IMG/VR virus record: IMGVR_UViG_3300034374_003448
Span: 1 to 25,085 of that record
DNA from: a virus
Length of the DNA: 25,085 nt
Reading direction: 5' to 3' (one strand)
Shown one piece after another: positions 6,195 through 24,959 of the stretch (position 1 is its first letter; each line of letters opens with the position of its first letter). Below the pieces are notes generated by a model that was not told the origin of the DNA, did not search any database, and was given only the letters and a program-made list of their open reading frames with translations. The translations under genes and the position numbers were made by a program.

Positions 6195-8144
6195 TTACCT
6201 ACTCGTAATGTCTACGACTTCGCATACCCCCGCTGTGCAGGCAAGTTCTTGAGAGCCTGTAGTATGATCCTCTCTCTCATATTCTCGCAGAAGCGTCCAG
6301 TTAATAGTGGATGGCATTCTCGCGGCCAAATTAGCGTAGGCCATTTCATCAATGTCTTGGTAGGGAGCCTGCTTATAAGTATGGTCTGAATAAGGCAGAA
6401 AACTAATACCCGAAATGGCATCAAAATTCTTAAATACCCAATCGCCAACACTAAGCCACTCATCTTCTTTTACGCTCACTGTGATACTAGGCTTATGCTC
6501 ACACCAATGCTCTTGGTAAATAAGCCAAAGTTCTAGATGCTCTAAAGCATTCATATCATCCCTACAAACTGAAGCAGCGGGTGACTGCATGGGGAATGAA
6601 AACACAGTCGCACTTTCAGGACGCATAAAGTCTGGTTCAGCTGGAATACCTGCGTCCTTTAGAAACTGCGTCATAGGGTCTTTATTATCCGCCCTTACTG
6701 TACGGATGTAGAAAGGATTATGGCGAGCATGAATGCCACTAGCAGAATCAACAAGCTGCGAGACTGTACCGCTAGGCTTGACACACGTAATAGCAGCAGA
6801 CTGATTAATACCAAGAAGAGCAGCAAACTGCTTGTTAACTTCAACGGCTGTACTCCTAAGATCACTTAACATACTAGCCAGATATTCTTTACCATTCTTT
6901 CCATTGCAATAAGAATTATCCATAATTCCTGTCAGAGATACTCCTAACAGGCGTTCTTCTTCAGTGTTCTTTCTCCAGATAGAACGCAGATACTTAAAGT
7001 CAGTTAGGCAGGATTGAAGAGTACCTAGAATAGTAGCTAACTCAACCTTCTCACGTAATGTTGCTTTAGTATCTCCCTCACGGACAACTACCTCAGATAG
7101 ATTACAGAATTGATAAGGTCTAAGAATAATCTCTGAGCATGGATTGGTACCCCACCTTATCTTTTTAGTCTTTGCTTCATCCGAATGATTAGATCGTCTA
7201 CCATTCTTAGCCACCTGTCTCTCCGCCGCTTGACGATTAAAGATGCCTCTTTCACCTGACTTACTTTCGTAGAGAGAAAGCCACTCAGAAAAAAATACTT
7301 CCATCGAAGGTTTATCTTTATACGAGACAGAGTTGTTTGCCAATGATCTTTGTGAATCATTGACCCACCATTCTCCAGACTTAGCCTTACGCATAGCGGT
7401 ATCATTAAGATTAGACAGAGAGATAAGAGCAGAGCGACGAACACCGCCGACAACAACAATCTCGCCAATCTTGCACATAATATCGTGGGCTTCCAGTGGG
7501 TATAAGCGTCTCCCAGCAGCTCCCTTAATCTTAGATACCACAAAGTTAAATAAATCCTCTAGGGGTTCCGGGCCACTTGCTCTACCGCCAAATGTTTTAA
7601 GCCTAGCTCCAGCGGGGCGGACGTTAGATACATCCCATTGTGGAATCTGGCCAGCATACAAGCAAGCAATTAACTCTCTTAGAGCCTTACACCATCCGAT
7701 CTTACTGTCGTCTACGACGATAACAGTGTTGCTTTCATGGAAATCTTCATTAATGAGTGGTAGCTTATCTACATTCTCACGCTCAACAGAGAAGCCTACG
7801 CCTGTTCCGCACATAAGAATGTACATAGCTTCATCAAAAGCACGTAAAGAATCTACTGGTACATATGAACAATTGTATGCTCCTACATGGCATCGCTCTA
7901 ATGCTGGACCAGCAGTCATTACGGCTCTCATAGAAGGCATTACATCTAAATTTAGAACAGCCTTTTGCAGACGTTCTCTATATTCAGAGACATCTACACC
8001 TTTTTCTTTTTTGATGTAGTCAAATAGATAATCGAAGTAACGTGTAATAGTCTCTTCCCATGTCTCACGGCGCTGGTCTTCTTCTCTCCAGCGAGCATAC
8101 CGTGAAAGAGCGATAAAGTTTTGATAGTCAGATGGTAATGCCAT
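6195..8144 (-). CDS. nrdJ: Adenosylcobalamin-dependent (class II) ribonucleotide reductase
   Basis: A 649-residue monomeric class II reductase that makes deoxyribonucleotides using a thiyl radical generated from coenzyme B12. The active-site set is complete by comparison with the Lactobacillus leichmannii enzyme: C92 (NCSY) and C347 (FCNLSE) as the redox pair, C336 and E338 in NPCSE as thiyl radical cysteine and general base, and C636/C641 as the C-terminal shuttle pair. CGTGVGFSVER (112-122) and GGVRRSALISLSN (233-245) are also diagnostic. Its ATG overlaps the TAA of the DUF3310 gene (TAATG). Use of class II implies that the host has or imports cobalamin, as many marine alphaproteobacteria do. 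No insertion or truncation is seen. Confidence 0.96.
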   Translation of the reverse strand: MALPSDYQNFIALSRYARWREEDQRRETWEETITRYFDYLFDYIKKEKGVDVSEYRERLQKAVLNLDVMPSMRAVMTAGPALERCHVGAYNCSYVPVDSLRAFDEAMYILMCGTGVGFSVERENVDKLPLINEDFHESNTVIVVDDSKIGWCKALRELIACLYAGQIPQWDVSNVRPAGARLKTFGGRASGPEPLEDLFNFVVSKIKGAAGRRLYPLEAHDIMCKIGEIVVVGGVRRSALISLSNLNDTAMRKAKSGEWWVNDSQRSLANNSVSYKDKPSMEVFFSEWLSLYESKSGERGIFNRQAAERQVAKNGRRSNHSDEAKTKKIRWGTNPCSEIILRPYQFCNLSEVVVREGDTKATLREKVELATILGTLQSCLTDFKYLRSIWRKNTEEERLLGVSLTGIMDNSYCNGKNGKEYLASMLSDLRSTAVEVNKQFAALLGINQSAAITCVKPSGTVSQLVDSASGIHARHNPFYIRTVRADNKDPMTQFLKDAGIPAEPDFMRPESATVFSFPMQSPAASVCRDDMNALEHLELWLIYQEHWCEHKPSITVSVKEDEWLSVGDWVFKNFDAISGISFLPYSDHTYKQAPYQDIDEMAYANLAARMPSTINWTLLREYEREDHTTGSQELACTAGVCEVVDITSR

Positions 8145-13488: not shown

Positions 13489-13926
13489 TCAGGTGTAATC
13501 GAACAGCGACATTGACGAATGCCTACGTTCAGCGACATTAAAGACACCACATCGCCTATCGTTTATAGAGTAGTATACAGTACGTAATTCAGCCTCTATG
13601 ATAAATTGGGTGCATACTTTACACGGCTTAGATAAAGCCATAGATGAGTCCGCAAGTATTCTACAAACGTATAAGTCTAGACCTTTACAGTTGTCTAGTC
13701 CGTACCTGAAGAGAGCATGTTGTTCAGCGTGTAAATGTGGCCACTGTGTTCTATGACGCAGAAGGGGGTGTGTCTTATAACTGTTTACACCAGAACAAAC
13801 TACGTATTTATCTACGAGTACTGCACCTAAACGAAACCTGCTGCCTTTGCTGGAATGTACGCCGGGTGTAGTCAAGGCAGCAGTTCTCGCGTGTTCAAGA
13901 AACTTGTTTACGTAGTATTTACTCAT
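13489..13926 (-). CDS. Deoxycytidylate/cytidine deaminase family protein
   Basis: A 145-residue zinc deaminase. The zinc and proton-shuttle motif HAE is at 66-68 (LHAEQHAL), and PCKVC at 101-105 supplies two cysteine ligands (C102, C105). Phage homologues convert dCMP to dUMP, the substrate of thymidylate synthase; ThyX is encoded two genes upstream, which supports dCMP as substrate. A nucleoside or tRNA substrate cannot be excluded from sequence alone. The ATG overlaps the TGA of the preceding gene (ATGA, 13923-13926). Confidence 0.8.
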   Translation of the reverse strand: MSKYYVNKFLEHARTAALTTPGVHSSKGSRFRLGAVLVDKYVVCSGVNSYKTHPLLRHRTQWPHLHAEQHALFRYGLDNCKGLDLYVCRILADSSMALSKPCKVCTQFIIEAELRTVYYSINDRRCGVFNVAERRHSSMSLFDYT

Positions 13927-14206: not shown

Positions 14207-14869
14207 TTAGTCCCCTTGAACGAATTGGTTAATGTATGGAAACACATTTGAAATAGCAGTAGCGCATTTAACTGCTAATTGTCTGTGCTCTTTCTGTGTA
14301 TCCTTATGAGTACGAAGTTCTACATAGTGAATCCAACTACGCATTGTCCCATTAACATATAGCTTAGTGCGAGTCAATCCTTCTGGAAGGATACAACGAG
14401 CAACCTCTTTGGCTATGTCGCGTTTAAGTGCTTGGTCGTATAAACGAAACACATGACGGCATAACTCTTTCTGTGCGCCCTCCCACCAAGCCTTTAACTC
14501 AGAATCGTTAGCAGCTAAGGAATTTTGTCTGTTGGTATAATCTTGTAGCCTAACCTCTCTGGCGTCTGCTAAAGTTTCTGTGGCTGAATACCTTTGACTA
14601 AACTCTTGTGCTGAAAAACTTCTATGCCTAAGCATTTGTCTAGAAATATCCCTAGACGTTTCTATTTCTAGAACAACATTAACCATTTCAAATGGAGACC
14701 AGTGCTTATGTCTAATTAGATACTTAAGTAGCTTATCTCCAGATAGATTTTCCATCTGGGCCGTAGGATTAGATACTCTAGCAAAGTAAACTATCGCATC
14801 CTCCATAGCGGCAGGTTGGTTAGGAACAATGGGCGCTACAGTCCACCCAGCTAACGACGCACTAGCCAT
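14207..14869 (-). CDS. thyX: Flavin-dependent thymidylate synthase ThyX
   Basis: A 220-residue ThyX that methylates dUMP to dTMP using FAD, NADPH and methylene-tetrahydrofolate. The ThyX signature RHR-x7-S is exact at residues 81-91, followed by QRYS. The N-terminal RVSNP (31-35) and HWSPFE (56-61) segments are also typical. I chose the ATG at 14869 because AGGAG lies just upstream; the frame is open for 12 more codons, but that stretch overlaps the previous gene. The start is two bases after the stop of the upstream gene. Confidence 0.94.
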   Translation of the reverse strand: MASASLAGWTVAPIVPNQPAAMEDAIVYFARVSNPTAQMENLSGDKLLKYLIRHKHWSPFEMVNVVLEIETSRDISRQMLRHRSFSAQEFSQRYSATETLADAREVRLQDYTNRQNSLAANDSELKAWWEGAQKELCRHVFRLYDQALKRDIAKEVARCILPEGLTRTKLYVNGTMRSWIHYVELRTHKDTQKEHRQLAVKCATAISNVFPYINQFVQGD

Positions 14870-14870
14870 T

Positions 14871-15068
14871 TCATTCTCCTGTTTTGCACCAATCAAAAAA
14901 CTCATCGTAGTTCATAAAGAACCTAAGCACAGTTATGAATGCTTTGCGTAGGTCTTCATCACTCTTGTCTATGTCTTTATATAAGTCAACAAGAACTTTT
15001 TTTACAAGAGTTTCTGCGGCACCATGGCTCACCTTTATACTGCTGTTAATATTTAGGCTATATTCCAT
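14871..15068 (-). CDS. Small hypothetical protein upstream of ThyX
   Basis: A 65-residue protein, mostly helical after residue 15 (AAETLVKKVLVDLYKDI and DLRKAFITVLRFF). The ATG follows GGAG within about 9 bases, and the stop lies against the ThyX start, whose Shine-Dalgarno sequence is inside this gene's last codons. It begins 32 bases after the tRNA-Arg gene in transcription order. No recognisable motif. Confidence 0.62.
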   Translation of the reverse strand: MEYSLNINSSIKVSHGAAETLVKKVLVDLYKDIDKSDEDLRKAFITVLRFFMNYDEFFDWCKTGE

Positions 15069-15100: not shown

Positions 15101-15177
15101 TGGCGCACCCTAGAGGACTCGAACCTCTGACCCACAGATTAGAAGTCTGTTGCTCTATCCAACTGAGCTAAGAGTGC
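15101..15177 (-). tRNA. tRNA-Arg (anticodon UCU), CCA encoded
   Basis: A 77-base cloverleaf. The acceptor GCACTCT pairs with AGGGTGC (one G-U), the D loop is AGCTCAGTTGGATAGAGC, the anticodon stem ACAGA/TCTGT encloses a loop with TCT, and the T arm AGAGG-TTCGAGT-CCTCT is canonical. Discriminator G is followed by encoded CCA. It would read AGA and AGG, which are used heavily by this AT-rich phage and are the Arg codons of the Ser-X repeat genes. It lies inside the - strand operon, three bases beyond the upstream stop codon, so it is probably cut from a polycistronic transcript. Confidence 0.96.
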
Positions 15178-15381: not shown

Positions 15382-15837
15382 CTACGGCAATTCAAAATGA
15401 GGAGAGTCGATGAATGGGGTACGACCCTCTCCTTTTCTTGTCTCTTCGTAAGAAGTTCTAGCGCCAATCATTGTACCTTCCCATTTACCAATGTCAGGTA
15501 CAGTCCATGCTGCCCCCCACCGTATAGGGACATTAATTTCTTTAGATACTAAAGCGACTGCCTCTGCAACTTCTGCAAAGGCGTCGTGATCCCAGACGAT
15601 ACTACCATTCTTATATACTAAAACGTCTACAGCATCACCTGTAATGTGCTTAGAGTTTAATGTCTTAGATTTTCCTGTGTCAAAAAGGTACTGCTGACGT
15701 TCTTCCGAACGTACACCTTCACCAATACCAAAGTCGATGGTAGACTTTAGAATTGCCATCTTCATAACAGTTTGAAGTAGCATATTTACACCTATTAAAT
15801 TTCTTAGTGAGCGATCACTGAACTTATACTGAGGCAT
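15382..15837 (-). CDS. M15-family L-alanyl-D-glutamate peptidase-like endolysin
   Basis: A 151-residue zinc peptidase resembling phage T5 endolysin and CwlK-type enzymes that cut peptidoglycan stem peptides. The GVRSEERQQYLF block (41-52), SKHITGDAVDV with zinc ligands H64 and D71, the RWGAAW strand (106-111) and PHFEL with H147 are all visible. Length is normal for a single catalytic domain and there is no signal peptide, so it would need a holin, which I could not identify in the window. Unusually, it sits among replication genes. GGAG precedes the ATG, which overlaps the upstream gene by 14 bases. Confidence 0.87.
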   Translation of the reverse strand: MPQYKFSDRSLRNLIGVNMLLQTVMKMAILKSTIDFGIGEGVRSEERQQYLFDTGKSKTLNSKHITGDAVDVLVYKNGSIVWDHDAFAEVAEAVALVSKEINVPIRWGAAWTVPDIGKWEGTMIGARTSYEETRKGEGRTPFIDSPHFELP

Positions 15838-21036: not shown

Positions 21037-21282
21037 CTAGTCAGACCCAGACCCAGACCTAGACCCAGATCCAGACCTAGACCCAGACCAAGACCAAGAC
21101 CTAGACACAGACCCAGACACAGACCCTGACCAAGAGCCAGACCAAGACCCAGACCCCGACCCAGACCTAGACCTAGACCCAGACCAAGACCTAGACCTAG
21201 ACCTAGACCCAGACCAAGACCAAGACACAGACCCAGACACAGACCTAGACCAAGACCTGTACTTGGTTCGTTTAGTTGCCAT
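21037..21282 (-). CDS. Ser-X repeat microprotein A (array 1)
   Basis: An 81-residue protein: a 10-residue basic head (MATKRTKYRS), then Ser at every second position with Trp, Arg, Gly or Val between, ending in Asp, its only acidic residue. The body is written with TCT for nearly every Ser and codons ending in G between. The ATG lies 11 bases after the stop of copy B, within TAG-GAGG-N7-ATG. Six copies share this design. In extended conformation all serines would face one side and Trp/Arg/Gly the other; nucleic-acid or membrane binding is conceivable but unproven. I do not recognise the family. Confidence 0.7.
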   Translation of the reverse strand: MATKRTKYRSWSRSVSGSVSWSWSGSRSRSRSWSGSRSRSGSGSGSWSGSWSGSVSGSVSRSWSWSGSRSGSGSRSGSGSD

Positions 21283-21670
21283 AGTTCTTCCTCCTAATCA
21301 GACCCAGACCAAGACCCCGACCTAGACAAAGACCTAGACCTAGACCCAGACCTAGACCCAGACCTAGACCTAGACTTAGACCAAGACATAGACCAAGACC
21401 CAGACCAAGACTCAGGCTCAGACCCAGACCAAGACTTAGACCAAGACCCAGACCTAGACATAGACCTGTACTTGGTTCGTTTAGTCACCATAGATGTTTT
21501 CTCCTAGTCAGACCTAGACCCAGACATAGACTCAGTCCCAGACCAAGAGCCAGACCAAGACCAAGACCCAGACCCGGACCTAGACCTAGACCCAGACCCA
21601 GACCTAGACCTAGGCATAGACCCAGACCAAGACCAAGACCTAGACACAGACCCAGACACAGACCTAGACC
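21040..21670. repeat. Hexanucleotide minisatellite array 1
   Basis: About 0.6 kb of degenerate 6-base repeats, AGACCN on the + strand (TCTNGG on the - strand, N = A, T or G, almost never C). It is broken twice by the conserved non-repeat segment holding stop, Shine-Dalgarno and 30-base gene head. The - strand is depleted in A outside AGG, with GG pairs every six bases, resembling telomere-type G-rich repeats. On the + strand the same sequence reads as Arg-Pro codons, which I treat as a shadow. Confidence 0.9.
21294..21491 (-). CDS. Ser-X repeat microprotein B (array 1)
   Basis: A 65-residue paralogue of copy A with head MVTKRTKYRS and a Ser-alternating body that includes Met, Lys, Leu and one Glu-Pro-Glu interruption (SEPES, about residues 24-28). 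The Shine-Dalgarno AGGAG begins within the stop codon of copy C; the start lies 12 bases beyond that stop. Middle gene of the first array. Confidence 0.7.
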   Translation of the reverse strand: MVTKRTKYRSMSRSGSWSKSWSGSEPESWSGSWSMSWSKSRSRSGSRSGSRSRSLSRSGSWSGSD

Positions 21671-21701
21671 AAGCCCTGTACTTGATTCGTTTAGTTGCCA
21701 T
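21504..21701 (-). CDS. Ser-X repeat microprotein C (array 1)
   Basis: A 65-residue paralogue with a slightly diverged head (MATKRIKYRA), the Ser-alternating body and a terminal Asp. It is the first gene of array 1 and starts 4 bases after the TAG of the preceding hypothetical gene. Its ribosome site (GGAG spaced 13 bases, or GGTGG nearer) is weaker than in the other copies, so it may rely on coupling to the gene upstream. Isolated breaks in the alternation (SMPRS, SGTES) show that the repeat is ageing. Confidence 0.68.
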   Translation of the reverse strand: MATKRIKYRAWSRSVSGSVSRSWSWSGSMPRSRSGSGSRSRSGSGSWSWSGSWSGTESMSGSRSD

Positions 21702-21705
21702 AGTT

Positions 21706-22203
21706 CTACCACCACTCCGGCTGTTGGGTTTTCCATTTAGCAAAGGAAGCCTTGGCCCCCCTGTAATAAGCACGATATGCTTCTACACAATCGTCCCTCT
21801 TATACTCATCTGGCATACACTGAGGCGGAGGGGTGAAAGATTCTAGGGGAATCCACAGTGGTGCATCCCTTAGATAGTAGGAGATTTCTTCTGACTTATG
21901 TATTTTTTTATACCTTTTCTTGTACTCATGGCAAAGAGTGTCATACAGTCTGTATAACCACTCATAATTATCTGCACTACTCCTAGCCCATACGGAGCTA
22001 GGATGATTTTGATGAGTTACTTTGTATAGGACAGAGTCTCTAATTCCAGACAAGACCCATCGCTTTTCTTCTAGCTTACCCTCCAACATACGGTGTGCCG
22101 TTGAGAGTATTTGCGCTGACTCCAACAGCATCTTAACCACATGCTTATCGCAGTGGTATTCTGCTGCGAGTCGAGGTGACTTATCTAAATAGAATATGTT
22201 CAT
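21706..22203 (-). CDS. Conserved-looking phage protein of unknown function
   Basis: A 165-residue protein beginning with a distinctive block: MNIFYLDKSP, then AAEYHCDKHVVKMLLESAQ and LSTAHR. The HCDKHVVK cluster (about 17-24) could bind metal. A second conserved-looking block is THQNHPSSVWARSSADNYEWLY near the middle. I recall similar phage proteins annotated as hypothetical, but no function. The ATG overlaps the TGA of the GcrA-like gene (ATGA). Its stop lies 4 bases before Ser-X copy C. Confidence 0.75.
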   Translation of the reverse strand: MNIFYLDKSPRLAAEYHCDKHVVKMLLESAQILSTAHRMLEGKLEEKRWVLSGIRDSVLYKVTHQNHPSSVWARSSADNYEWLYRLYDTLCHEYKKRYKKIHKSEEISYYLRDAPLWIPLESFTPPPQCMPDEYKRDDCVEAYRAYYRGAKASFAKWKTQQPEWW

Positions 22204-22556
22204 GCGATCCTCTCGTAGGGTACATAGGCTATATCACAGTGCTTCTTGCAGTAGGGTTTACCCTCCACTACATTTTCATCACCGCAATAGTGAAAGTTTG
22301 GCCTATTTGGATGGCCTATTGGCCAAGCACAGGTCTTCTTTACTGCAATAGGTTTTACTTTTATCTCTACTACAGCGAGGTTGGTACGAGTAGTCTTATC
22401 CTTTTTGGGCAGGCCCATTCGAAAGGCTTTCCCTATTACCGCCTTACGACTAACAACTCCTAGTATATCCGCAATCTCTTGCGCCGTGTATGCGGATGGC
22501 CATAGCTCCCGTAGCTTGTCTACTCTCCACCCAACCCAAACATTATCTCTAATCAT
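22200..22556 (-). CDS. gcrA: GcrA-like cell-cycle regulator
   Basis: A 118-residue homologue of GcrA, the alphaproteobacterial factor that binds sigma70-RNA polymerase and activates promoters carrying CcrM-methylated GANTC sites. The N-terminal helix-turn-helix reads LRELWPSAYTAQEIADILGVVSRKAVIGKAFRMGL in two blocks (15-31, 32-49). The C-terminal zinc-like part keeps C76 in CAWPIG, C91 in FHYCG, and C103/C107 in PYCKKHC, followed by AYVP. The family is confined to alphaproteobacteria and their phages, so this gene points to the host. ATGA overlaps occur at both ends. The likely role is redirecting host transcription or cell-cycle state. Confidence 0.93.
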   Translation of the reverse strand: MIRDNVWVGWRVDKLRELWPSAYTAQEIADILGVVSRKAVIGKAFRMGLPKKDKTTRTNLAVVEIKVKPIAVKKTCAWPIGHPNRPNFHYCGDENVVEGKPYCKKHCDIAYVPYERIA

Positions 22557-22708
22557 TCTCCGTACCTTTCTTCCAGTCTAGTATTATAGTCCACTACGTC
22601 AAAGGAGGGGCTTTCACCCCTCCACTCCTTAAAACAATCTCTACATGCATAGATAGCTATGCGGTCTTCTGAGTAGAGATATTCTAAGTCCTCACATTTG
22701 CATGTCAT
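22553..22708 (-). CDS. Small four-cysteine protein upstream of gcrA
   Basis: A 51-residue protein coupled at both ends by ATGA overlaps (22705-22708 and 22553-22556), strong evidence that it is a gene. Cysteines are arranged as CxC (C3, C5) and CRDC (C22, C25), a possible zinc site, with an acidic C-terminal helix (DYNTRLEERYGE). A perfect 7-bp hairpin with a GAAA loop lies within the coding sequence at 22604-22623. Function unknown. Confidence 0.72.
   Translation of the reverse strand: MTCKCEDLEYLYSEDRIAIYACRDCFKEWRGESPSFDVVDYNTRLEERYGE
22604..22623 (-). other. GC-rich hairpin with GNRA-type loop inside a small gene
   Basis: The - strand reads GGAGGGG, TGAAAG, CCCCTCC: a 7-bp stem closed by a possible U-G pair over a GAAA tetraloop. 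Only three T residues follow, so I do not call it a terminator; it could be a processing site or an attenuator upstream of gcrA. Confidence 0.45.
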
Positions 22709-23124
22709 GCTGCTAAAATCTCCTGTACTTGCTCATGGGTAAGGAGCTTCAATTCCCTATGGATTTCTAGCTTACCATCCGCAAAGATGTAGGGCGTTCC
22801 AAGCTTGCATGTAAGCATTACCTGTTCAGCCTTGTGGATTTCCGCAGTGCGGTCATTTTTTAACACAAAGTGATTTAGTGTGAATGGGTTGTAGATCACG
22901 TCTACAACGTTATTAAACACCTTGTGCGGTACAACGTCCCCTTCTACAAAAGCATGTACATTCTTCTGCCCGGTTCGACGAACCTTAGCTTGTCCAGACT
23001 TCCATACGATGAACTTTACATCCTCAAGGACTAGGTGATGGACATAGTCCACTACTATTTTCTTTTGCTTGTCTACAACGGAAAAGCATTGGCGTTGCAA
23101 GTTGTAGTATACTCTAGCGCGCAT
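22705..23124 (-). CDS. Conserved-looking phage protein of unknown function
   Basis: A 139-residue basic, beta-rich protein starting with MRARVYYNLQRQCFSV and containing DYVHHLVLEDVKF and RTGQKNVHAFVEG. I recall similar short phage proteins with a VHAFV-like motif, with no known function. I chose the ATG at 23124 because GGAGG lies 9 bases upstream; the frame is open 24 codons further. It overlaps the 3' end of the preceding frame by 52 bases and couples to the next gene through ATGA. Confidence 0.78.
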   Translation of the reverse strand: MRARVYYNLQRQCFSVVDKQKKIVVDYVHHLVLEDVKFIVWKSGQAKVRRTGQKNVHAFVEGDVVPHKVFNNVVDVIYNPFTLNHFVLKNDRTAEIHKAEQVMLTCKLGTPYIFADGKLEIHRELKLLTHEQVQEILAA

Positions 23125-23315
23125 TTGCTTCTTTCCTCCGACAAATACAGAACGACAATTGTATCCGTCCAATACGGATAAACCGAATGCCACCAATCTT
23201 TTTCATGGTCATGGCATACTTCCTCTTTAGTTTTAGCAGGATCATCAGTACCAGAATGCCAATCTGGTATAGGCTGAAGCAACTTGCTACATAGCAACTT
23301 GCCCCAACCTTTCAC
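23073..23315 (-). CDS. Probable small gene with GTG start
   Basis: An 80-residue frame starting at GTG, 4 bases after the stop of the gp88-like gene, with AAAGG spaced about 7 bases. It fills an otherwise empty 195-base gap and then overlaps the next gene by 52 bases in another frame. Its first 60 residues (with DWHSGTDDPAKTKEEV and DWWHSVYPYW) look protein-like and are rich in Trp and acidic residues. The long overlap makes it less certain; the C-terminus may be fortuitous. Confidence 0.48.
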   Translation of the reverse strand: MKGWGKLLCSKLLQPIPDWHSGTDDPAKTKEEVCHDHEKDWWHSVYPYWTDTIVVLYLSEERSKCALEYTTTCNANAFPL

Positions 23316-23319
23316 CCAG

Positions 23320-23931
23320 TTACCTTTTGCGGATAGCTTCCACTACATACGTTTTATCGTTGCGTGTATAGCAAGTCATGCAGTCTCTACAGCGTTGCCC
23401 CGTGCAGTCTTGCTGGTCTACAAACTTGTCCCGCGTGACGTTATTGAATACCTTATCAAAGTACATCGGCGGAACTGTCCGTAACTTGTTGACAAATGGG
23501 TTAGACCATACCAAGAATAAGTTTTCAGGCTTGCCATGTTTCCTAATGACAGCCTGCACCATGCCCGGACGTTTAGTCCACCACCCGAAAATTACTTTGG
23601 GGTTAGCACGGACTATGGCGAGATAATTTTCTGCATGTTGCAGATTTTCTACGTCCCCGTGATGGGAGAACCGGACTACGTCCCCCGGATAAAATCTTGG
23701 TATCTCGTGGTCCTCCAGAGGACGCTCCGTTATAAACCAATTGCGGTCAAGTGCCGCCTTTACACTAGGGCGGTATCCATTACCCAGTGTGGCATGGCTG
23801 TAGCAATAACGACAAATCCAGTCGTCACGGTCCACCTTGGACATCTTCTGGCAAAACTCTTGTTTAAGAGTGTTGGTTCCAATGGCGATCATGCGGTCCA
23901 TCTTGCCGTTTAACTTACTTACATGGGTCAT
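23320..23931 (-). CDS. Gp88-like phage protein with cysteine clusters
   Basis: A 203-residue protein resembling the phage 'gene product 88' group. It opens with KLNGKMDRMIAIGTNTL, then the cysteine motif EFCQKM..ICRYCYSH (about 26-45), a central RFSHHGDVENL strand-turn, WWTKRP, and a C-terminal cluster CTGQRCRDCMTCY (about 178-190). The CxxCY and C-terminal cysteines suggest a metal or Fe-S cluster with a radical-enzyme-like alpha/beta core, but this is inference. Its start overlaps the upstream small gene by 17 bases. Function is unknown; it lies in the early region. Confidence 0.65.
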   Translation of the reverse strand: MTHVSKLNGKMDRMIAIGTNTLKQEFCQKMSKVDRDDWICRYCYSHATLGNGYRPSVKAALDRNWFITERPLEDHEIPRFYPGDVVRFSHHGDVENLQHAENYLAIVRANPKVIFGWWTKRPGMVQAVIRKHGKPENLFLVWSNPFVNKLRTVPPMYFDKVFNNVTRDKFVDQQDCTGQRCRDCMTCYTRNDKTYVVEAIRKR

Positions 23932-24091
23932 TGTCCATCCTCCTGAGTTTTAGGACTAGCTTTGCAGCGAGTAGGCTGCGGTTTTCTTTGGGGCTGTTCA
24001 AAGATGAACAGTCCTCGTGATTCTCCACCATAGCTTTAAGAATCCACGAAGGTTCTCCTCCGTACATCGACAGTGCTTCTATGTATGTCAT
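23915..24091 (-). CDS. Small hypothetical protein after Ser-X array 2
   Basis: A 58-residue protein with an excellent ribosome site (TAGGAGG spaced 4-5 bases from the ATG), following Ser-X copy F by 22 bases. It is mostly helical (YIEALSMYG, PSWILKAMVENHED, RSLLAAKLVLKLRRM), suggesting a small helical bundle. It overlaps the gp88-like start by 17 bases. No family is recognised. Confidence 0.66.
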   Translation of the reverse strand: MTYIEALSMYGGEPSWILKAMVENHEDCSSLNSPKENRSLLAAKLVLKLRRMDNDPCK

Positions 24092-24113
24092 ATCACCTCC
24101 TAACCAGTACTCA

Positions 24114-24293
24114 CTAGTCAGACCAAGACTCAGACCAAGACCTAGACCTAGACCCAGACCAAGACCAAGACAAAGACCTAGACCCAGACCTAGACAAAGA
24201 CCAAGACCCAGACCTAGACCTAGACCAAGGCCAAGACTTAGACCCAGACCCAGACCTAGACAAAGACCTACATTTGGTTCGTTTAGTTACCAT
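24114..24293 (-). CDS. Ser-X repeat microprotein F (array 2)
   Basis: A 59-residue paralogue with head MVTKRTKCRS, where Cys replaces Tyr, and a Ser-alternating body of Leu, Arg, Gly, Lys, Trp and Glu, ending in Asp. One Ser is replaced by Pro (WPW, about 21-23). It starts 11 bases after the stop of copy E in the TAG-GAGG cassette and ends with TAG immediately followed by TGA. Last gene of array 2. Confidence 0.7.
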   Translation of the reverse strand: MVTKRTKCRSLSRSGSGSKSWPWSRSRSGSWSLSRSGSRSLSWSWSGSRSRSWSESWSD

Positions 24294-24304
24294 AGTCCTT
24301 CCTC

Positions 24305-24424
24305 CTAGTCAGACCCAGACCCAGACTCAGACCAAGACCAAGACCCAGACCAAGACCAAGACCTAGACCCAGACCTAGACTCAGACCAAGACCTAGACCT
24401 GTACTTGGTTCGTTTAGTCACCAT
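24305..24424 (-). CDS. Ser-X repeat microprotein E (array 2)
   Basis: The shortest paralogue, 39 residues: head MVTKRTKYRS, then an unbroken Ser alternation with Arg, Trp, Glu and Gly, ending in Asp. Every repeat Ser is TCT and every repeat Arg is AGG. Its head DNA is identical over 30 bases to that of copy B in the other array. A clean ATG with AGGAGG upstream, 12 bases after the stop of copy D, argues that even this short version is a gene. Confidence 0.68.
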   Translation of the reverse strand: MVTKRTKYRSRSWSESRSGSRSWSWSGSWSWSESGSGSD

Positions 24425-24436
24425 AGTTACATCCTC

Positions 24437-24622
24437 CTATTCAGACCAAGACACAGACTCAGACCCAGACCAAGAATTAGGCCCAGACCCAGACCCAGAC
24501 CAAGAATTAGGCCCAGACTCAGACCCAGACCAAGAATTAGGCCCAGACCCAGACCCAGACCAAGACCCAGACCAAGACCCAGACCTAGACCTAGACCGGT
24601 ACTTGGTTAGTTTAGTTGTCAT
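24437..24622 (-). CDS. Ser-X repeat microprotein D (array 2)
   Basis: A 61-residue paralogue with head MTTKLTKYRS and a Ser-alternating body that includes three copies of a 10-residue unit GPNSWSGSxS. It ends in Glu rather than Asp. AGGAGG is spaced about 8 bases from the ATG. First gene of array 2, preceded by a short remnant of another copy. The GPNS units come from a 30-base tandem duplication found only here, showing recent expansion. Confidence 0.7.
   Translation of the reverse strand: MTTKLTKYRSRSRSGSWSGSWSGSGSGPNSWSGSESGPNSWSGSGSGPNSWSGSESVSWSE
24471..24560. repeat. 30-base higher-order tandem repeat within copy D
   Basis: CAAGAATTAG recurs at 24471, 24501 and 24531 with exact 30-base period, with nearly identical sequence between. 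Each unit encodes ten residues of the microprotein (GPNSWSGS plus two). This is a second level of duplication superimposed on the 6-base repeat. Confidence 0.92.
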
Positions 24623-24649
24623 AACTCTTCCTCCTAGTCAGACCAAGAC

Positions 24650-24676
24650 CTAGACCCTTGGTTAACAAAGGTCTAG
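24650..24676. other. 11-bp inverted repeat upstream of array 2
   Basis: CTAGACC at one end and GGTCTAG at the other continue through one G-U and three more pairs to a 5-base loop containing TTAAC, giving an 11-bp stem. One arm is repeat-derived sequence from the remnant copy. No T-run follows on either strand, so it is not a typical terminator. It could be an RNA processing site or a trace of the recombination that created the array edge. Confidence 0.6.
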
Positions 24677-24692
24677 GCATTTCCCCTTGAAA

Positions 24693-24959
24693 TTACGTCT
24701 TGTTCATGACGCCGAACGACTCAATCGCAGCCGTCTGGACATACCAAGCTTCAGCGCCAAGGTCTTGGGCGTCCTTCCACTTTGCGTCATTGAAGGGACC
24801 AGTTTCGTAGACCACTTTGGCTCCGGTCAATTTGACGCAAGAGCTATTCACACCTACCAGCTTACCTGTGTAGATATAAACACCACACCACAGCGTCACA
24901 GTCTGACCCAGCAGGGCTTCGAGACCTTCGTTCTGCACTTCGTTAACGATAACTTTCAT
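24693..24959 (-). CDS. Small beta-rich conserved-looking phage protein
   Basis: An 88-residue protein with AAGGA spaced 7 bases from the ATG. Residues 15-55 show five alternating strands and Gly turns (TVTLWCGVYIYTGKLVGV, then CVKLTGAKVVYETG), like a small Sm-like or SH3-like barrel, followed by a Trp-rich segment (KWKDAQDLGAEAWYVQTAAIESFG). I recall similar marine phage proteins annotated as hypothetical. The fold is a guess from the strand pattern; an RNA-binding role would follow only if it is confirmed. Confidence 0.7.
   Translation of the reverse strand: MKVIVNEVQNEGLEALLGQTVTLWCGVYIYTGKLVGVNSSCVKLTGAKVVYETGPFNDAKWKDAQDLGAEAWYVQTAAIESFGVMNKT

Follow-up and report, generated by a model that had tools for sequence, protein, structure and literature searches.

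The virus record IMGVR_UViG_3300034374_003448, whose whole stretch of 25,085 bases is referred to as the window and which derives from a phage of the HMO-2011 type, carries a two-gene cassette found in hundreds of uncultured phages. The first gene, gene A, encodes a protein that is small, acidic and predicted to adopt an Sm/LSm fold. It is followed by at least one gene for a short Ser-X (SX) protein, proposed to be translationally coupled to it, usually by an ATGA overlap. The SX proteins share one layout, with a conserved head of ~10 residues and then (Ser-[Arg/Gly/Trp])n up to the stop codon. We favour, with a probability of roughly 0.4, that the acidic Sm-like partner and a disordered basic SX chain act together in binding or condensing nucleic acids early in infection. 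A first-pass annotation made from the sequence had described a six-copy family of Ser-alternating microproteins in two tandem arrays. The arrays were correctly found and the six copies are real; the gene directly upstream, gene A, was left unconnected, and the family, far from being peculiar to one phage, makes up one half of a widespread two-gene module whose other half has the predicted Sm fold.

All six open reading frames (ORFs) proposed on the minus strand are present (Table 1). The basic head, given as M-x-T-K-R-T-K-Y-R-S, was seen as M-x-T-K-[RL]-[TI]-K-[YC]-R-[SA], each copy starting with ATG, and the alternating Ser and the terminal acidic residue were borne out, the last residue being Asp in five copies and Glu in one. 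Shine-Dalgarno sequences of the AGGAGG or AGGAG type precede five copies, as had been noted, and that of SX ORF 4 is weak. In the tails, Ser is encoded by TCT in 146 of 150 cases and X mostly by NGG. In the window the motif TCTNGGx3-TCT has 46 matches, every one of them inside the arrays on the minus strand, compared to none in 100 dinucleotide shuffles. A headless remnant of an SX tail was read between gene A and SX ORF 1, just upstream of the latter.

Table 1: Positions of the SX cassette and of other features in the window.
Feature	Position	Strand	Remarks
Gene A	24693-24959	-	88 amino acids; acidic small beta-barrel, predicted Sm/LSm fold; first gene of the module
SX-tail remnant	~24633-24656	-	headless, ..TCTAGGTCTTGGTCTGACTAG (S-R-S-W-S-D-stop); sequence reading
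SX ORF 1	24437-24622	-	61 amino acids; head MTTKLTKYRS; Shine-Dalgarno AGGAGG at 24630-24635
SX ORF 2	24305-24424	-	39 amino acids
SX ORF 3	24114-24293	-	59 amino acids
SX ORF 4	21504-21701	-	65 amino acids; weak Shine-Dalgarno; opens the distal array, after the phrog_624 gene
SX ORF 5	21294-21491	-	65 amino acids
SX ORF 6	21037-21282	-	81 amino acids
Possible hairpin	~24650-24680		CCTAGACC + GGTCTAGG
phrog_624 gene	21706-22203	-	'DNA binding protein'
Ribonucleotide reductase gene	6195-8144		
Deaminase-like gene	13489-13926		
ThyX gene	14207-14905		
tRNA-Arg(TCT) gene	15101-15177	-	sole tRNA gene of the window
Endolysin gene	15382-15837		PHROG match

It had been argued that conservation of start, head, frame and stop implies translation. 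Openness of a frame alone is weak evidence, because TCTNGG arrays may lack stop codons in more than one frame. Nevertheless, the Ser-X frame was open and had an ATG within 75 nucleotides upstream in 168 of 207 viral TCTNGG arrays, compared to 15 for the Leu-Gly frame and two for the third sense frame; the antisense frames reached 22, 8 and 16 of 197 arrays. On these counts the antisense Arg-Pro frame and the sense Leu-Gly frame, either of which would make the variable base silent, were rejected as the coding frame. TCTNGG arrays in bacterial genomes showed no frame preference (9, 6 and 9 of 94; 8, 4 and 12 of 82). The pattern that would have spoken against a protein, with frames broken in relatives while the DNA repeat persists, was not observed, the Ser-X frame alone being kept across the 207 viral arrays. 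Synonymous and nonsynonymous change in the heads pointed the same way: among 37 distinct heads of the form MNxAxxRxG[FYLVH][DE], the invariant Ala, Arg and Gly are encoded by four, six and four codons, respectively, and in heads such as MNAAVLRTGFD the amino acids are kept and the third codon positions are free. This combination argues that the proteins are made, and supports the view that the SX ORFs encode translated, selected microproteins of a hitherto undescribed family.

Pattern scans of IMG/VR, in which counts refer to the matches listed and are lower bounds, revealed at least 282 SX mini-ORFs in at least 169 viral loci, with a median length of 63.5 amino acids, a median head of 10 residues and a repeat tract that usually reaches the stop codon. 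The X positions are occupied by Arg (30%), Gly (29%) and Trp (28%). Tandem copies are numerous in some phages, the locus L012 having 14. Heads are either basic (MVTKRTKYRS, MIRGKKQKWS, MITKRTKWRRRS, MIKKSIYKRNI) or of a second type, MNxAxLRxGFDxS. Depending on the phage, the Ser codon is TCT, TCG, TCA, AGC or TCC and is near-uniform inside each phage. Codon counts of this first set are biased by the search patterns; sets found with gene A alone are free of that bias, their SX ORFs still having had to pass a test for a Ser-X frame rich in Arg, Trp and Gly. Simple (TCTGTG)n or (TCTCGG)n repeats were also seen in unrelated contigs (L018, L038, L054, L079 and others), encoding Ser-Val, Ser-Leu or Ser-Arg runs; without heads and without the Arg/Gly/Trp mix, these are different things.

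Homologs of gene A lie directly upstream of an SX ORF in 123 of the 169 loci. As an SX-independent test, two profile searches were performed using gene A alone, one for each of its subfamilies, designated R and Y. An SX ORF was detected just downstream in 71 of 76 R loci (65 distinct gene-A sequences) and in 69 of 80 Y loci, these sets sharing some contigs with the first one. The remainder of the Y search comprised five loci at contig ends and six misses, three of them with a truncated SX frame; in both searches together, six loci lay at contig ends, and in four others (L459, L538, L563, L565) the SX frame was very short or truncated. Gene A and SX overlap by exactly 4 nucleotides in 119 of 204 pairs, and the gene-A subfamily tracks the head type (Y, 35 basic and one MN; R, 79 MN and four basic). 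Since no other conserved neighbour was found across the loci compared, gene A and SX belong together.

The structure of gene A was predicted with AlphaFold2, yielding a mean predicted local distance difference test score (pLDDT) of 94.8 and a predicted template modelling score (pTM) of 0.84 for the window protein with 59 relatives, and a pLDDT of 91.5 for the R subfamily. The models show a bent five-stranded small barrel with an N-terminal helix, as in the Sm fold. In a Foldseek search of the PDB, the top 50 hits of the window protein were all Sm or LSm domains or complexes holding them (probability 1.00, E ~1e-3, TM score 0.55-0.65), and the R subfamily likewise matched Sm/LSm with a few exceptions. 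Strand order fits Sm, as do an Sm1-like motif (G-K-L-x-G-V-N...L) and, in the R subfamily, an Sm2-like motif (I-x-R-G-x-I), both read by eye. Compared to known members of the Sm/LSm/SmAP/Hfq superfamily, gene A is mildly acidic, lacks a profile match, has SX nearly always next to it and is almost confined to phages. Conserved acidic residues are E11, E52, D63 and E80 in the Y subfamily and D69, E84 and E86 in the R subfamily. No match was obtained in PHROGs or, above cutoff, in NCBIfam. Small phage proteins in BFVD, namely DUF6948 proteins and an 'RNA binding protein' of Gordonia phage Reyja, resemble gene A in predicted fold, but sequence identity is below about 20%.

The SX tails are constrained in composition and free in order. 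In 220 tails, Arg, Gly and Trp occur at.345:.338:.317 with near multinomial scatter, all three are present in every tail, and unit order is random, autocorrelation being absent at lags 1-6. Net charge has a median of +10 and is positive in 379 of 380 SX proteins, Arg making up ~15% of the residues. Between close relatives the order is reshuffled: for L112 and L113 (gene A 97% identical, downstream 600 nucleotides 94%) as well as L213 and L445 (90% and 96%), unit order was no closer than in shuffled tails. SX ORF 4 and its ortholog in the relative L185 (5455), however, are 96% identical with unchanged unit order, so that turnover is uneven. Simple tandem duplication as sole generator of the tails was rejected, since internal duplication was found in only 34 of 158. 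For Arg, a phage uses either AGG or CGG and rarely mixes them; no base is strictly excluded at N, since the minor codon makes up 3-4% over all loci, like other variants. Hypermutation of N was dismissed as well, because substitutions occur at all positions in the single conserved ortholog pair. Gly is encoded by GGG in 48 of 51 loci found by gene A, and all four Gly codons are used in the heads. Fast turnover combined with selection on composition accounts for most of these features, the NGG rule excepted, to which RNA structure does not provide the answer either.

Relatives of gene A in viral contigs numbered 412 and 255 in two single-motif searches. Among 50,697 deposited phages only two carry the pair, both from the Manatee Spring metagenome: MW202825 has two SX frames, and the 43-amino-acid SX gene of MW202573 (UOF78858.1) is annotated as hypothetical. 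A search of 72,556 plasmids with one R-subfamily gene A gave no match, and three samples of together ~870 bacterial genomes yielded 0 of 289, one weak match in 297 and one in 287, although an empty answer from the bacterial genomes carries limited weight. Two contigs of 10-12 kb from Patescibacteria metagenome-assembled genomes (L351, L385) contain the gene A family, and L385 also has an SX ORF with an MRGKKQKW head; these are perhaps Patescibacteria phages or misbinned contigs. The bacterial TCTNGG arrays, without frame preference and with the gene A family only in these two contigs, were not regarded as family members, and matches of gene A to the Microbacterium phages Squash and Mashley were treated as spurious, SX being absent and the context unlike. 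Many contigs stop inside an SX array or soon past it (within 700 nucleotides of gene A in at least 18 of 80; for example L524, L527, L573 and L594). Assembly therefore probably breaks off at these arrays, and counts of the module are too low.

How might the pair act? The tail is envisaged as a disordered, basic, Trp-rich chain of which composition, not order, is selected, and which may bind or condense nucleic acids in a multivalent manner, Arg and Trp being the stickers and Ser and Gly the spacers. A chain that keeps its composition but not its order, and in which Ser and Gly space out the Arg and Trp residues, would fit multivalent binding without sequence specificity rather than a fixed structure. 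The gene A product might be an oligomeric hub, a chaperone or an RNA-selecting partner and, being acidic and made in step with SX, may hold, limit or direct it. Early in infection the two would then form or remodel RNA-protein, possibly single-stranded DNA-protein, assemblies. Several findings weigh against this picture, in which disorder, nucleic-acid binding, a physical complex, condensation and timing are inferred. The window gene A had no Sm, LSm or Hfq sequence-profile match in Pfam at E<1, a PDB chain search with gene A (A1) gave nothing at E<1, and no LSM family match was found among 53 R-subfamily members. Foldseek E-values of only ~1e-3 are modest, the fold being small, and the median net charge of gene A (-3) is unusual for an RNA binder. 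The pairing of head type and gene-A subfamily can stem from shared descent, and the near-constant NGG at X, with GGG for Gly, is not explained by protein selection alone.

Cationic antimicrobial peptides are known to condense RNA and to block transcription as well as translation (PMC10630377), and foci are formed by Hfq, the Sm protein of bacteria (PMC7458820), which makes the building of assemblies and the shutting off of the host both plausible. SX might thus be a cationic Trp/Arg-rich peptide that shuts off or kills the host by acting on transcription, translation or membranes, restrained by acidic gene A in the manner of a type II toxin-antitoxin system. The order of two small genes, acidic first and basic second, their 4-nucleotide overlap, the strong positive charge and multiple copies of SX and the early-region location in the window are all consistent with this. 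Unlike most toxin-antitoxin pairs, however, the module was not found in the plasmids searched with an R-subfamily gene A and is practically absent from the sampled bacterial genomes, and PADLOC models of known anti-phage defence families gave no match. Ser at every second position is moreover not typical of membrane-active peptides. We consider such a role unlikely and favour the building of assemblies. A protamine-like compaction or virion factor that acts on phage DNA while it is replicated or packaged, gene A providing the scaffold, is improbable: the chain is basic and rich in Ser and Arg and the cassette of the window lies upstream of replication genes, but both there and in MW202573 it accompanies early rather than structural genes, and the Arg content of SX is far under that of protamines.

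Equally improbable is that the hexamer array of Ser codon and NGG acts as DNA or RNA (a binding-site repeat, a G-rich R-loop or a recombination hotspot) and that the frame is incidental. In each phage five of the six bases hardly vary, including the silent third base of Ser, and X remains NGG and Gly remains GGG despite Ser codons differing among phages, which this explanation would accommodate. Yet the Ser-X frame is retained and others are not, Ser triplets as unlike as TCG and AGC are in use, the heads are under amino-acid selection and arrays of bacterial genomes lack the frame bias; a repeat as the primary object was ruled out as the leading explanation by frame bias, Ser codon variety and head selection. 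Special RNA structures or G-quadruplexes were rejected too, native tails being no more structured or stable than synonymous recodings. The suggestion of the first-pass annotation that the chain forms two-faced strands, which would assemble into fibres or sheets, draws on the strict Ser alternation and appears the least probable. High charge argues against it, and a random Gly/Arg/Trp order that is reshuffled between close relatives does not suggest a fixed register, making a disordered chain likelier than a regular strand.

Matches of SX ORFs were absent from Pfam, PHROG, PADLOC and, above cutoff, NCBIfam, in line with the earlier statement that no phage family of this kind is known; DNA-similarity and literature searches for the tail gave nothing relevant, and literature and family-model searches found neither gene A nor the SX protein described. 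The sole library match concerned the staphylococcal Sdr/Clf adhesins (E ~0.01; 13.6 bits against a cutoff of 1150, too low for membership), which likewise have Ser-X dipeptide repeats, but as Ser-Asp adhesin stalks, whereas SX proteins are free peptides of 40-110 amino acids with Arg, Gly and Trp. In eukaryotes, SR proteins and the RG-tailed Sm proteins SmB, D1 and D3 bring the Sm fold and a Ser/Arg or Arg/Gly low-complexity chain together in RNA machinery. This is an analogy only, since SX is a separate gene with strict Ser alternation and one third Trp at X; Arg makes up only one third of the X residues, and Pfam detected no RRM, as is characteristic of SR proteins, in the SX ORFs. Nucleic-acid-condensing cationic antimicrobial peptides are likewise short and cationic and form RNA condensates (PMC10630377); SX proteins differ in being phage-encoded, Ser-alternating and accompanied by an Sm-like partner. 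The fold of gene A is known; its pairing with SX and the three-word tail are, as far as testable, new. To our judgement the odds are about even that an Sm-fold protein with a free, order-independent tail of three equal, codon-fixed, continually reshuffled hexamer words (Ser-Arg, Ser-Gly, Ser-Trp) represents a system not seen before in viruses, in which a protein selected on composition alone has a folded partner of its own and serves hundreds of phages in either building nucleic-acid assemblies or disabling the host.

Many relatives, yet none in the family libraries searched and only two in GenBank phages, suggest that a common phage strategy has escaped notice; low-complexity filtering usually removes free repeat peptides, and contigs often break off within the arrays. 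Because the Sm-fold partner is conserved, the function can be tested. The tails resemble a natural experiment in composition-selected proteins, which bears on the biology of disordered proteins and condensates, and it may be asked how three hexamer words stay balanced in a phage while their order reshuffles.

The DNA polymerase of the window is 58-59% identical to those of Roseobacter phage CRP-1 and Puniceispirillum phage HMO-2011, and the early gene order (integrase, primase, helicase, ThyX, polymerase) is shared with CRP-1. Genes for ribonucleotide reductase, a deaminase-like protein, ThyX and endolysin form a set expected in an HMO-2011-type phage, all but the endolysin being assigned by comparison of gene order with CRP-1 and HMO-2011 and by sequence reading. 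The cassette lies in the early region. Its distal array follows the phrog_624 gene without a gene A of its own, and in L185 the SX copies are distributed 2+4 rather than 3+3. Past gene A and ahead of SX ORF 1, two segments can pair as a hairpin, a possible coupling or processing element. The only tRNA of the window, tRNA-Arg(TCT), could decode AGG, the source of nearly all Arg in the SX tails.

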